DNA from: Bacteroidales bacterium
GTDB taxonomy: Bacteria; Bacteroidota; Bacteroidia; Bacteroidales; UBA932
Direction: 5' to 3'
Assembly: GCA_004555145.1 (NCBI GenBank)
Contig: SFJB01000080.1
Span: 1-7,315, forward strand
DNA: 7,315 nucleotides
Shown: in pieces, positions 1 through 4,873 of the stretch
Numbering within the stretch: the first letter of the stretch is position 1
Layout of the letters: each line of letters starts with the position of its first letter
The notes under the pieces: model-generated
What the model saw: only the letters and a program-made list of their open reading frames with translations
Told to the model about the DNA's origin: nothing
Databases searched by the model: none
Translations under genes and position numbers: made by a program

Positions 1-590
1 ACCATAACGATGGTGGTGCCTTCGGCGTTGAGTTCGGAAAGCAGGTCCATCACCTCCTTGCCGTTCTTGGAGTCAAGGTTACCCGTCGGTTCATCGGCGA
101 GTATGAGCTTGGGACCCGCCACCACGGCGCGGGCAATAGCCACCCTCTGCTGCTGACCGCCGGAGAGCTGCTGCGGGAAATGCTTGGCGCGATGGCTGAT
201 GTTCATCCTCTTCATTATCTCTGTAACCTTCTCCTTGCGCTCTGCGGCGGAGATGTTCAGGTAGCGGAGTGGGAGTTCTATGTTCTCATATACGTTGAGT
301 TCATCGATGAGGTTAAAGCTCTGGAAGACGAATCCGATGTTGCCTTTGCGGAACTTGGTGCGGTCCTTTTCCCTAAGTTTGCCCACCTCCTGGCCAAGGA
401 GCTCGTAGGATCCTTCGCTCGGATTGTCGAGAAGGCCGAGAATGTTGAGAAGAGTGGACTTGCCGCAGCCTGAAGGGCCCATAATTGCGACGAACTCTCC
501 GTCTTTGATTTCAAATGATACGCCTGAAAGTGCGGTTGTTTCGATTTCTTCTGTGCGGAACACCTTGCACAGGTCTGTTACTTTGATCAT
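1..590 (-). CDS. ABC transporter ATP-binding protein, MacB/LolD type (3' end outside window)
   Basis: This is the nucleotide-binding subunit that hydrolyses ATP to drive the FtsX-type permease encoded just upstream. I translated it from ATG 590-588; 196 codons are visible and the frame stays open to the window edge. The Walker A loop GPSGCGKST lies at residues 38-46, the Q-loop (VFQSF) has Gln90, the ABC signature LSGGQQQRVAIARA starts at residue 142, and Walker B plus D-loop LILADEPTGNLDS covers 162-174. The H-loop histidine and the C-terminus would lie beyond the left edge. Sequence style (Q-loop followed by FNLI, LSGGQQQR, ADEPTGNLDS) is that of the MacB/LolD/FtsE group, which acts on lipoproteins, peptides or cell-envelope substrates instead of importing solutes. 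The 25-nt gap after the permease stop indicates one operon. There is no clear Shine-Dalgarno sequence; the leader is AT-rich. The substrate cannot be deduced. Confidence 0.95.
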   Translation of the reverse strand, partial: MIKVTDLCKVFRTEEIETTALSGVSFEIKDGEFVAIMGPSGCGKSTLLNILGLLDNPSEGSYELLGQEVGKLREKDRTKFRKGNIGFVFQSFNLIDELNVYENIELPLRYLNISAAERKEKVTEIMKRMNISHRAKHFPQQLSGGQQQRVAIARAVVAGPKLILADEPTGNLDSKNGKEVMDLLSELNAEGTTIVM

Positions 591-615: not shown

Positions 616-3027
616 TTATTCTGTTTTGATACCTTCTGACGGGTTGCGGCGCACTGCGCCCACGGTCTGCCAAAGCACGGACATCACGGCAATCAGCAGG
701 GAGACCACACAACTTGAGATGAAAATCCATATTCCCGGCGAAATGTGGTAGCTGAAACTCTGGAGCCACCTGTCAGAGATATAGTATGCCACCGGCACGG
801 CTACCACGCAGGATATCAGCAGCGGAGCGCAGAACTTGACGAGCATAAACAGGATGACGTCCTTGACGCTGCCGCCCATTATCCTTCTGACTGCAATTTC
901 GCTTCTGCGCTGGCGAATGAAGAAAAGCGACAAGCCTATGAAACCGAAGATTGAAATCAGGAGGGCTATTCCGGTAAACATCAACACTATATGCAGGACA
1001 TTCCTCTCTTCTTCAAACTGAGATGCCACACCTTCTTCGAGATTCTGCACCACCCAGTCCACATTCGTGCTGTTGGTCATCACCTCGGCAACTGCTGACC
1101 TGATCGTCCTGTATGCCTCCGGGGAGCCGTCTGTCTTTACTACATAGTCGGGGTTCTGTATCTTTCCCGCCTCCTGGTAAAAAATTGCAAATTCAGAGAC
1201 TTCTTGGAGTATGTTGCCCTTGTGAAAATTATTGATTACCCCGGCAAGGCTCCATATCGAGCCGTTCTGCCACTGAATCTCTCGGTCGGAATCTGACAGG
1301 CCAAGGTCCTCCTTCATCTTCTCATTGATATAAACCGCACCGTCGGAAGCTCCGTAATCATTCAGGATTTCCAGTCCATAAATCTCAAAGGCCGCCTTGT
1401 CAAGATTCGCCAGCATTATCAGGTGTTGAGCGTCGTTATTGTCCCTCATCATACTCACGGATGAGGGTCCTGCCGACAGGCAACTGCCGCTGCTCAGACC
1501 AATCTTCTGCACACAAGGAAGTTGCTCTAGAGCCGAGAGTATTGCGTCAGAGTCGCCAGGCTCGTCAGGCATGATGTAAACGACATCCTTGACATCGATT
1601 CCCAGAGGGGCCTTTACGAGTCCGTTGATCTGCAGCGCGACCACCAGCGACAGGGTGAGCATCACGACGGTAATGAGATTCTGGATCATTATGAACACGC
1701 GGCTGAATACCATTTTCGACTTGAAACGGAAGCTGCCTTTGACCACATCTATAGGTTTGAAGGCAGAAATCTGAAGTCCGGGTATGATTCCGGCGAGAAG
1801 GCCGGTCAGCACGACAAAGCCTATGCAGACGCTGACGGTTCCCGGGGTGAAGTCGTTTTCCAGCATTATCCTGCCCCGGAACATCGAGGCCATCTCGTCC
1901 TGGAAAAGGAAGGCAAGCCCAAGGCCCAGAAGGAAGGATATCAGCACCATAAGGGTGGATTCTCCCACGAGTTTGCCTATTATCTCCCGGGAAGAACCGC
2001 CCAAGAGCCTTCTCGTGGCCATTTCCCTGGCTCTCATTCCGGTATTTGCCACCGTCAGGTTGATATAGTTGGTGACGGCAAAGAGAAGTATGGCAATTAC
2101 GGCACTCAGAAGGATTACCAGAAGAACCTTGTTGCCTTTCTCCAGGCCGCTTCCGTTGTTCTGCGGATCAAACATCACTTTTCTCAGCGGAGTGATACTT
2201 GCAGACGATATGCCGCTTCCCTCAAAGAAAAACTCCATCATAGGGATATCAGCCTTGAGCATAGACCATATTTCTTCTCTCTTCGAGTCCAGGCTTGCTC
2301 CCTTGGCAAGGAGATAGAAGGTCTTGAAACAACCGTGTCCGGTGCTCACAAATACATCGGAAGTCATATTATAGCCCAGAATCTGCGGATGTCTGTCTAT
2401 TGAAGCTATAATCTTCGTGTCATTCGGTAATACGGTCTTGTCGAAATCCCTGACCACTCCGCTGACAGTATATACCAGGGTGCTGTCGTAAGGATCACGA
2501 CCACTGATGGTCACCGACCTTTGGCCTATTATCCTGAGAGCTTCTCCCATAGGGTCCACGTCCGGGAACAGCACATCTGCGAGGCTTTCGGTAATGACGC
2601 ATTTGTCCGGGGAAGACAGAGCGTTCCCGGGATCGCCTTCAACGAAATCGTATGAGAACATACTGAAGAAGGTCGAGTCTACAAGAAGCACAGGGTTCCC
2701 TTCCTCATCCTTGAAACTTTCCTCGTCTGTCCTGATTGTGCCTCCCTGGCTCACCACGCAACAGGTATTCTCGATTTCGGGATACATCCTGCCGATTTTC
2801 CAGGACTCCTCCGGCCATGACATATAGTCGCTCGAGCGGCCCAGAAGCACAATCCTGTCCTTGTTCGGCTGGGAATGGTCCACACTGAACTGCCTCCAGG
2901 TATAGTCTCCGATAAGGATTACGAACATAAGAGCAACAGACAATCCCACGATGTTGATCACCGTATAAAATGGGTTGCGTTTCAAGAATCTGAAAAATGA
3001 TTTCATTCCTTTACAATTATCCGTCAT
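616..3027 (-). CDS. FtsX/MacB-like ABC transporter permease, 803 aa
   Basis: This is an inner-membrane permease of the MacB/FtsX mechanotransmission type. Eight hydrophobic segments are readable: about residues 20-40, 300-323, 357-374, 395-417, 442-466, 678-704, 726-750 and 763-788. The first is followed by a large extracytoplasmic MacB-PCD-like domain (about 45-295), and a second such domain spans about 470-675. Each FtsX half has the cytoplasmic signature after its first helix: REMATRRLLGGSSREI near 335 and SEIAVRRIMGGSVKDV near 712. The C-terminus RRNPSEGIKTE is typical of the family. About 800 aa with two FtsX domains is the usual Bacteroidota form. Met8 (ATG at 3006-3004) preceded by AAAGGA is an alternative start. 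The gene is first in an operon with the ATPase; no adaptor (HlyD-like) or outer-membrane partner is visible here. Substrate unknown. Confidence 0.93.
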   Translation of the reverse strand: MTDNCKGMKSFFRFLKRNPFYTVINIVGLSVALMFVILIGDYTWRQFSVDHSQPNKDRIVLLGRSSDYMSWPEESWKIGRMYPEIENTCCVVSQGGTIRTDEESFKDEEGNPVLLVDSTFFSMFSYDFVEGDPGNALSSPDKCVITESLADVLFPDVDPMGEALRIIGQRSVTISGRDPYDSTLVYTVSGVVRDFDKTVLPNDTKIIASIDRHPQILGYNMTSDVFVSTGHGCFKTFYLLAKGASLDSKREEIWSMLKADIPMMEFFFEGSGISSASITPLRKVMFDPQNNGSGLEKGNKVLLVILLSAVIAILLFAVTNYINLTVANTGMRAREMATRRLLGGSSREIIGKLVGESTLMVLISFLLGLGLAFLFQDEMASMFRGRIMLENDFTPGTVSVCIGFVVLTGLLAGIIPGLQISAFKPIDVVKGSFRFKSKMVFSRVFIMIQNLITVVMLTLSLVVALQINGLVKAPLGIDVKDVVYIMPDEPGDSDAILSALEQLPCVQKIGLSSGSCLSAGPSSVSMMRDNNDAQHLIMLANLDKAAFEIYGLEILNDYGASDGAVYINEKMKEDLGLSDSDREIQWQNGSIWSLAGVINNFHKGNILQEVSEFAIFYQEAGKIQNPDYVVKTDGSPEAYRTIRSAVAEVMTNSTNVDWVVQNLEEGVASQFEEERNVLHIVLMFTGIALLISIFGFIGLSLFFIRQRRSEIAVRRIMGGSVKDVILFMLVKFCAPLLISCVVAVPVAYYISDRWLQSFSYHISPGIWIFISSCVVSLLIAVMSVLWQTVGAVRRNPSEGIKTE

Positions 3028-3051: not shown

Positions 3052-3059
3052 AAAACTTA
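3052..3059 (-). promoter_or_regulatory. Weak candidate -7 element for the ABC operon
   Basis: On the minus strand this reads TAAGTTTT, 7 of 8 positions matching the Bacteroidota -7 consensus TAnnTTTG. It lies 24 nt upstream of the permease ATG, a geometry similar to the promoter on the other strand. No TTG-like -33 element is seen at the expected distance, so the call is tentative. Confidence 0.25.
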
Positions 3060-3104
3060 TATTATTGGTTTTCAGCATTTTAGCGACGAGAGTAAAAGGG
3101 AGAA

Positions 3105-3145
3105 TGTAAAAATAATTTACACCTCCTGTAAAATTTCTTTACAGG
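3105..3145. promoter_or_regulatory. Four-half-site operator, alternating TGTAAA/TTTACA in 11-bp register
   Basis: Half-sites start at 3105 (TGTAAA), 3116 (TTTACA), 3127 (TGTAAA) and 3138 (TTTACA), and every spacer is exactly 5 nt (AATAA, CCTCC, ATTTC). They form two perfect inverted repeats of 17 bp each with centres 22 bp apart, about two helical turns. The second one extends to 8-bp arms, CCTGTAAA and TTTACAGG (3125-3145). The element sits between divergently transcribed genes. For the rightward promoter (TATTTTTG at 3173-3180, presumed start near 3186) its centre is near -62, an activator-like position. The arrangement suits two dimers, or a higher oligomer, bound on one face of the helix. 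The regulator is unknown. A terminator is unlikely because neither strand has a following T-tract and both flanking genes start here. Confidence 0.75.
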
Positions 3146-3172
3146 TCTGCCGGGAAACTCTGCAAAAAAACG

Positions 3173-3180
3173 TATTTTTG
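3173..3180 (+). promoter_or_regulatory. Bacteroidota-type -7 promoter element (TATTTTTG) for the GH20 operon
   Basis: The sequence is an exact match to the TAnnTTTG consensus recognised by the primary sigma factor of Bacteroidota. It lies 22 nt upstream of the GH20 ATG, giving a short leader of about 16 nt if transcription starts 5-7 nt downstream. A good -33 TTG is not present at the usual 19-21 nt distance, which would fit dependence on an activator bound at the operator just upstream. Confidence 0.6.
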
Positions 3181-3202
3181 TATAAACCAATTATGTAAAA
3201 TT

Positions 3203-4873
3203 ATGGCTCCATTTGTTCCTGTTCCGTCTCGGAAGCCTTTCAGGCAGCTGGCCGGGATTTTCATAGTCTCTCTCTCCATTGCGGCTTGCAGCACGCCTTC
3301 CTCGGATATTTCAGTAATCCCTATGCCCGCCGAGGTGGAAGTCTACAAAGGTGAATTCGACTTCGCCAAAGCTTCTTTTTCCTACGACTCTTCCATGGAT
3401 AAGCTCAGCCTGGACTATGCTCAGGCTTTCGAGGCATCCCTGAAGAGCGTGATGGGCAGCCCGGCAAAGGGTTGCGGGAAGGTAAGCTTTGTCCTTGACG
3501 ACAAGCTCGCAGCCGAAGAATACACAATAAGATCGACGCCGCGCCGACTCACTGTCAAGGCATCCTCCCTGAACGGCTTTGTATATGCAGTCCAGACCAT
3601 CAAGCAGCTGCTCCCGACAGCAATATGGAGCGGCAAGGCCGAGCCTGAAGCACAATGGACCGTCCCGGTGATGACCGTACGCGACTACCCGCGTTTCGCC
3701 TACAGGGGTATGCATTTCGACTGCGTGCGCCATTTCTTCTCCATCGGGGAGGTACGCCGCTACATCGACCTGCTTGAGATGCATAAGATCAACCGCTTCC
3801 ACTGGCACCTGACCGATGACCAGGGTTGGAGAATAGAAATCAAGAGCCATCCTGAAATCACGGCCAAGGGAGGCTGGCGCAACGGCACCATGATAGGGCG
3901 CGACTTCTCTTCCAACGACGGCATACGCTACGGCGGCTTCTACACTCAGGAAGAACTCCGCTCCATCGTGGATTATGCAGCCTCGAAGGGTATCACCGTC
4001 ATCCCGGAAATCGAGCTCCCTGGCCACACCCAGGCCATCATCACCGCCTATCCGGAACTCGGCTGCACGGGCGGACCTTACGAAGTGATGACCGTCTGGG
4101 GCATCTCGGACGAAGTGATTTGCGCTGGAAACGAAGCAGTCTTCCCTGTCATAGAGGACATACTCACCGAGCTCATAGACATCTTCCCTTCCGAGTACAT
4201 CCACATCGGAGGCGACGAGTGCCCGAAAGTCAACTGGGAAGCCTGCCCGAAATGCCAGGCCAAGATCCGCGAACTCGGACTGAAGGATGACGACAGATTC
4301 AAGGCTGAAGACTATCTCCAGAGCTATGTGATGAACCGCGTGGAGAAGTTCCTCAACGAACACGGGCGCAAGGTCATAGGCTGGGACGAGATTCTTGACG
4401 GCGACATTTCCCAGACCGCGACCATTATGTCCTGGAGAGGATCCGCAGGCGGAATCAAGGCTGCCAGGAGCGGACGCGACGCCATTATGGTACCGAACGA
4501 CTATTTCTATTTTGACTACTGCCAGAGCCGCAACATCGCAGAGGAGCCGCTCTGCATCGGAGGTTATGTTCCTGTTTACAAGGTATATTCCTTCGAGCCT
4601 TTCGAGAATCTGAGCGAGGATGAGAGCAGGCACATTCTGGGCGTGCAGGCCAATCTCTGGACCGAATACATACCGGAGTTCTCCGGCGTCGAATATATGG
4701 TTCTGCCTCGTATGGATGCCTTGAGCGAGGTGCAGTGGTGCGCCGCCGACAGGAAGGACTTCGGGCGCTTCCGCCGCAGTCTCCTGAAGATGAGGGACAT
4801 TTACGATGCAATCGGAGCGAACTATGCGACCCATATCTTCGACGGGCGTATGGATGAAGAAATGCTAAAATAA
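3203..4873 (+). CDS. Beta-N-acetylhexosaminidase, GH20 family, secreted lipoprotein
   Basis: The enzyme is predicted to remove terminal beta-linked GlcNAc or GalNAc from glycans by substrate-assisted catalysis. It begins with a lipoprotein signal: Arg/Lys-containing n-region, hydrophobic stretch, and lipobox IAAC with lipidated Cys29. A GH20b-type N-terminal domain (about 33-160) is followed by the catalytic barrel (about 163-510). Seen in order: YRGMHFDCVRHFF with substrate-binding Arg168, FHWHLTDDQGW at 199-209, HIGGDEC with the catalytic Asp338-Glu339 pair, and pocket tryptophans at 394, 411 and 486 (NLWTEY). At 556 aa it lacks the carbohydrate-binding or CHB_HEX modules of longer Bacteroides relatives. 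The residues after Cys29 (STPSSD) do not show the acidic lipoprotein export signal, so periplasmic location is at least as likely as surface display. The gene heads a three-gene operon. No Shine-Dalgarno sequence is evident. Confidence 0.95.
   Translation: MAPFVPVPSRKPFRQLAGIFIVSLSIAACSTPSSDISVIPMPAEVEVYKGEFDFAKASFSYDSSMDKLSLDYAQAFEASLKSVMGSPAKGCGKVSFVLDDKLAAEEYTIRSTPRRLTVKASSLNGFVYAVQTIKQLLPTAIWSGKAEPEAQWTVPVMTVRDYPRFAYRGMHFDCVRHFFSIGEVRRYIDLLEMHKINRFHWHLTDDQGWRIEIKSHPEITAKGGWRNGTMIGRDFSSNDGIRYGGFYTQEELRSIVDYAASKGITVIPEIELPGHTQAIITAYPELGCTGGPYEVMTVWGISDEVICAGNEAVFPVIEDILTELIDIFPSEYIHIGGDECPKVNWEACPKCQAKIRELGLKDDDRFKAEDYLQSYVMNRVEKFLNEHGRKVIGWDEILDGDISQTATIMSWRGSAGGIKAARSGRDAIMVPNDYFYFDYCQSRNIAEEPLCIGGYVPVYKVYSFEPFENLSEDESRHILGVQANLWTEYIPEFSGVEYMVLPRMDALSEVQWCAADRKDFGRFRRSLLKMRDIYDAIGANYATHIFDGRMDEEMLK

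Follow-up and report, generated by a model that had tools for sequence, protein, structure and literature searches.

A tandem TGTAAA-N5-TTTACA array as a probable enhancer of a sigma-54-like promoter before a MacB-type permease operon in a Bacteroidales bacterium

Introduction

Enhancer-dependent sigma-54 promoters assisted by IHF are well known, and the accessible part of PMC7057263 places sigma-54 enhancers at 100–150 bp and describes looping with the help of IHF. For FtsX-type permeases (COG0577) of Bacteroidia, a 2025 paper predicted control by sigma-54 and called this first evidence (PMC12316311); in the available portion of its main text, none of the terms UAS, "upstream activat", "palindrom", and IHF appears. 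For the sigma-54 regulon of Flavobacterium psychrophilum, the available text of PMC9723704 places a −24/−12 motif ahead of genes for envelope stress and protein quality. The TyrR box of Escherichia coli and its relatives, with the consensus TGTAAA-N6-TTTACA and paired boxes, is described in the accessible part of PMC4374768. Here, we analyze an array of TGTAAA half-sites in a 7,315-nt stretch of a Bacteroidales genome (assembly GCA_004555145.1, contig SFJB01000080.1), hereafter the window, and compare it with these systems.

Results

The array and its genomic setting

Between a leftward MacB/FtsX-type permease gene with its ABC ATPase and a rightward GH20 gene (Table 1), the window contains the exact 39-bp array TGTAAA-AATAA-TTTACA-CCTCC-TGTAAA-ATTTC-TTTACA (3105–3143). 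All 24 of 24 half-site letters are intact, and the two palindromes lie 22 bp apart from center to center, a layout like that of a two-dimer site on a single DNA face, most likely serving activation. An earlier note on this DNA had described four half-sites with three 5-nt spacers, which the window matches exactly, and had drawn the end of the array at 3145, 2 nt too far. The clean edges it reported were also found, with no half-site at the next register positions (3094–3099 and 3149–3154). Two lone half-sites lie outside the array, beside the permease start (3010–3015) and the GH20 start (3194–3199). The 39-bp pattern appeared in 0 of 200 dinucleotide shuffles of the window. TGTAAA occurs 8 times in the window on both strands, 4 of them within the array, compared to a shuffle mean of 1.7, and a count of at least 8 was reached in 1 of 200 shuffles.

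Table 1. Features of the window, with the roles proposed for them.
Feature	Position	Strand	Remarks
ABC ATPase	3..590	−	Pfam ABC_tran; same operon as permease; truncated by window edge
MacB/FtsX-type permease	616..3006	−	Pfam FtsX and MacB_PCD; proposed first gene of controlled operon
Sigma-54-like −24/−12 promoter TGGCACGCTCAATGTA	3050–3035	−	54-nt gap to array; just before divergent permease
IHF-like block AACCAATAATATA	3058..3070	−	7/9 consensus letters; at relatives' offset from −24
Promoter-proximal palindrome TGTAAA-N5-TTTACA	3105..3121	.	Exact; first proposed activator dimer site
Distal palindrome TGTAAA-N5-TTTACA	3127..3143	.	Exact; second proposed activator dimer site
GH20 gene	3203–4873	+	Followed by esterase-like protein and ZIP transporter

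For the permease, a start at 3006 was preferred over one at 3027. Its product is 71% identical, over the full length, to a permease of another genome (L095 in G291) that is encoded third in an operon of the order TolC-adaptor-permease-ATPase; there, an array precedes the TolC gene. In NCBIfam, the window ATPase comes closest to DarD, the ATPase of the darobactin exporter, with a score below cut-off; an adaptor in a relative's locus (L078:11119-12372) is also closest to darobactin exporter families, again below cut-off. Judged by Pfam domains, the window encodes no activator with a sigma-54 AAA+ domain. Candidatus Cryptobacteroides is the name given for 3 of the 120 protein relatives listed for the GH20.

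Recurrence of the array in relatives

Locus L001 lies in an uncultured Bacteroidia MAG, and the family of that genome, together with its order, served as the comparison set. L001 is the closest GH20 relative found, at 52% identity, and its family may not be the window's own. The search of related genomes for the 39-bp pattern that the earlier note had suggested recovered it, with at most 3 mismatches, in 34 of 398 genomes of this family versus 2 of 398 for the reversed-pattern control, with some 3-mismatch rows (e.g., G108, G155, and G272) looking like chance matches. Arrays with zero mismatches occur in 9 of the 398 genomes, 2 of which (G088 and G282) share one sequence; sites from related genomes are in general not independent of one another. 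The arrays are surrounded by genes for TolC-type outer membrane proteins, HlyD/MacA-type adaptors, FtsX permeases, and MacB-type ATPase, and a frequent form of the palindrome is TGTAAAG-N3-CTTTACA. A second, distal palindrome matching 10 or more of 12 letters occurs at 23 of 44 nonredundant relatives' sites. Its spacer is mostly 4 or 5, which makes the window's strict 11-bp register one of two forms that are common. In the arrays of L085, L091, L104, L106, and L107, CGTAAA replaces some of the TGTAAA half-sites, with pump genes downstream in several of them, which suggests related activators with a shifted preference.

A sigma-54-like promoter at a near-fixed distance

The −24 element of the window, TGGCACG, is intact, and at −12 the TG is in place within a triplet that reads TGT, not TGC. 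The array centers ~75 bp from the −24 element, and the chance of finding TGGCAC at gaps of 54–56 nt on either side is ~0.0016 at the window's own frequency. A −24-like hexamer lies 54–56 nt from the array edge in 30 of 32 distinct arrays of relatives, the exceptions being L064 and L072. These arrays were collected without a promoter condition; they are the sequences from L044–L109 that carry no more than 2 mismatches, counted once each and with 3-mismatch arrays excluded, and they were scanned for TGGCAC and its one-letter variants up to 150 nt on either side. Every other gap observed holds one or two hexamers.

A second search pattern combined one palindrome, a free gap of 40–70 nt, and TGGCAC. 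It was found in 56 of 398 genomes of L001's family (reversed control 1 of 398), with the gap falling at 53–57 nt in 75 of the 80 listed rows. The five deviating rows have match lengths of 69, 69, 87, 88, and 89, and the three longer ones show a degenerate −24-like hexamer where it would usually stand. The two of length 69 (L119 and G234:C29:47901-47969) have a spacing about one helical turn (9–10 bp) short. Across the order, 22 of 393 genomes contained the pattern (reversed control 3 of 393), and 34 of the 43 listed rows had a match length of 75–80, with nine outside this range. Two genomes, G787 and G716, have 8 and 5 listed matches, respectively, meaning that the regulon can span several promoters. 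This near-invariant spacing is the most unusual feature of the module.

For alignment, we drew on 60 loci (L110–L169) representing part of the free-gap rows. They gave 60 unique matches including the window, of which 50, again including the window, had a length of 75–80; the other ten were dropped. Removing sites at least 70% alike over 50 nt left 44 relatives' sites, in which the proximal palindrome lies about 53–57 nt from TGGCAC. Both of these elements were imposed by the search, and the −12 element and the IHF-like block described below were not. At the −12 place, the aligned relatives have TG (G in 93%), followed by T in 52% and C in 36%.

An IHF-like block in the spacer

The aligned relatives share a block, ATCAA-N4-TTA, located 19 to 8 nt before TGGCAC, that corresponds to the IHF consensus WATCAANNNNTTR as printed in the accessible part of PMC5963220. 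At this common offset, at least 7 of the 9 consensus letters are present in 26 of the 44 relatives' sites and at least 8 in 18 of 44, while no other offset reaches 7 of 9 in more than 9 of 44. The score of the window's own block, 7 of 9, is reached by ~1.1% of shuffles of the window spacer at that offset. A gene of the HU/IHF family (PF00216) was present in all 12 array genomes examined, two of them with a second match. Ten of the 12 have a single PF00216 match, though the consensus seen at the sites is that of a heterodimer, the IHF of E. coli.

Genes downstream of the promoter

The first gene downstream of the −24 element is a pump component at 38 of 49 distinct relatives' sites (window excluded), namely, TolC at 23, permease at 7, ATPase at 7 (one weak, 26 bits), and adaptor at 1. 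The remaining 11 sites include ten with other genes and one without a called gene downstream. On their far side, the 49 sites have pump genes in 6 cases, kinase or activator genes in 6, other genes in 35, and no gene in 2. Nine of the ten non-pump genes were examined after their start codons had been re-chosen: three encode DUF2807 (toastrack) proteins, four CarboxypepD-domain proteins (one match just below cut-off), one a DUF3836 protein, and one a carboxylesterase. The loci in which the promoter module precedes toastrack proteins are L147, L155, and L164; the toastrack domain has been tied to PSP-like envelope stress systems (PSP/Lia) in the accessible part of PMC11237479. Recurrence in the family, combined with pump genes downstream in the relatives, bears out the earlier note's view of a conserved regulatory element that is not randomly placed. 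Its choice of target, the rightward GH20 promoter, was not borne out: the relatives' −24-like elements mostly precede pump genes, and that of the window lies on the minus strand, before the permease.

Candidate regulators

Of the 36 regions fetched around arrays, ~10 kb each way and many cut by contig ends, 8 contain an NtrC-type activator gene scoring above 400 bits (L096 is the query itself, and L085 and L107 are from related genomes), and three further regions have activator matches at 204–265 bits. Assuming 3 activators per 2.2 Mb, the probability of 8 in 36 is ~5e-6. Domain analysis of four activators from relatives confirmed them as sigma-54 activators of the NtrC type, and such regulators occur together with histidine kinases in some of the relatives' array loci. 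RpoN is found in 230 of 249 genomes of L001's family.

With one activator as query, matches at 1e-50 occur in 247 of these 249 genomes, so that presence alone says little. Below 1e-100, the same query matched 27 of 34 genomes with free-gap sites versus 81 of 215 others, a contrast that weakens when the genomes with 39-bp arrays are added (31 of 45 versus 77 of 204). A one-to-one pairing of this activator with the sites was not found, as a match below 1e-100 is missing in 7 of the 34 site-bearing family genomes and present in 81 of the 215 others. Approached from the activator side, 12 of 30 activator loci (L170–L199) have a palindrome with at least 8 of 12 letters, scored against the N5 template, before a −24/−12-like element, several with a visibly shorter spacer. 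The imperfect pairing may thus be due in part to sites with other inner spacers. Membership of the ArgR and BlaI families was considered and not adopted. The earlier note had raised ArgR purely as an architectural analogy; the regulators linked to the sites in relatives are of the NtrC type, and the genes downstream of those sites belong to pumps and the envelope.

Discussion

Proposed mechanism and alternative readings

We consider it highly probable that the array is an enhancer for two activator dimers serving the sigma-54 promoter of the MacB permease-ATPase operon. Each palindrome would be bound by one dimer of an NtrC-type response regulator, a protein with receiver, sigma-54 AAA+, and Fis-type HTH domains. 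An IHF/HU-type protein would bend the ~55-nt spacer, and the activator would remodel the RNA polymerase-sigma-54 at TGGCACGCTCAATGTA. Transcription of the divergent operon would follow once a partner histidine kinase senses its signal, from a predicted minus-strand start around 3024, which is ~18 nt ahead of the permease ATG (3006). From these sequences we infer binding, bending, activation, a signal, and the existence of such a regulator in this organism. The array, the near-fixed spacing, the −24/−12-like and IHF-like sequences, the pump genes, and the activator and kinase genes at some loci of relatives are all directly observed. What argues for the enhancer is the spacing in 30 of 32 arrays and the window's own gap of 54 nt, the free-gap searches with their controls, the common offset of the IHF-like block, the pump genes at 38 of 49 sites, the linked activators, and the distribution of RpoN. 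Against it stand the TGT at −12 and the two letters by which the IHF-like block is off in the window, the 2 arrays of 32 lacking the spaced hexamer, the 10 non-pump sites of 49, and the imperfect tracking of the activator.

The array could also be read as driving the rightward GH20 gene, alone or with the permease operon, from an ordinary Bacteroidota promoter with a −7 element TATTTTTG at 3172–3179. The array is intergenic and closer to the GH20 start than to that of the permease, the −7-like box is present, and a further array outside the 49 sites, that of L100, also adjoins a GH20 gene. In L100, however, the array adjoins the 3′ end of the GH20 gene, and the −24-like hexamer is directed away from that gene, to an outer-membrane barrel gene on the opposite side. 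At the 49 relatives' sites, GH20 is neither the first downstream gene nor the far-side neighbor in any case (0 of 49), and the plus side of the window has no correctly spaced −24-like hexamer among those listed. The palindrome is also absent from all 43 GH20-relative loci (L001–L043; L001 and L031 share a genome, identity to the window GH20 does not exceed 56% in any of them, and some have short upstream flanks), and GH20 was rejected as the regulated gene on this count. We regard this reading as very unlikely.

Less probable still is that a regulator independent of sigma-54, such as a repressor, occupies the array, with the −24 and IHF-like sequences being coincidental. Many regulators bind palindromes of such size, which speaks for this reading; against it are the near-fixed distance to TGGCAC, the pump targets, and the activator genes in relatives' loci. 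The window copy might, finally, be a decayed and non-functional member of a real family of sites, as its off-consensus −12 element and IHF-like block would allow. We give this the lowest probability of all, in view of the 24 intact half-site letters, the perfect −24 element, the conserved distance, and the fact that TGT is the commonest −12 triplet in the relatives.

Implications and comparison with known systems

If the array is a sigma-54 enhancer, the MacB-TolC-type exporters of gut Bacteroidales, most of them uncultured, gain a likely operator and a likely family of regulators, where the 2025 paper, in its available portion, predicted sigma-54 promoters only. The composite pattern of palindrome, 54–56 nt, and TGGCAC allows the regulon to be listed in further genomes, and the distance between enhancer and promoter, near-fixed in so many of them, lends itself to testing how rigid sigma-54 looping can be. 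We see even odds for a broader proposal, in which a Bacteroidales-wide sigma-54 envelope regulon, comprising MacB-TolC pumps, DUF2807/toastrack proteins, and CarboxypepD-domain proteins under NtrC-type two-component control, would use a hard-wired enhancer. In it, the TGTAAA palindromes, the IHF-type bend, and the −24 element would keep a near-invariant distance, and activation would be set by one fixed loop geometry, as opposed to flexible looping.

In openly licensed PMC papers, our searches turned up neither this operator or its geometry nor a connection between it and a family of activators. The half-sites of the TyrR box, TGTAAA/TTTACA, are identical to those of the window, but the TyrR spacer, according to the accessible text, is 6 nt (G-N14-C), while both window palindromes have 5 nt. 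The regulators linked to the sites in relatives also differ from TyrR in carrying a receiver domain, as does the promoter in being −24/−12-like, and membership in the TyrR system was not adopted. The Flavobacterium psychrophilum regulon belongs to the same phylum but has other target genes, and the available text of PMC9723704 names no activator operator. NtrC/PspF-type enhancers, as far as the accessible descriptions go, share with the module, as proposed here, a position ~100 bp upstream of the start, a −24/−12 promoter, an IHF-type bend, and an AAA+ activator, and the two exact palindromes of the window form a tandem inverted-repeat element ~100 bp upstream of the predicted start. They differ from the present module in its tandem TGTAAA-N5-TTTACA sequence, its near-invariant distance across the sampled relatives, its MacB-TolC targets, and a −12 element that often reads TGT. 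The system predicted in PMC12316311 shares both target class and sigma factor with this locus as interpreted here, and to what its available portion describes, the present analysis adds the enhancer, the IHF-type block, the spacing, and the linked activators.
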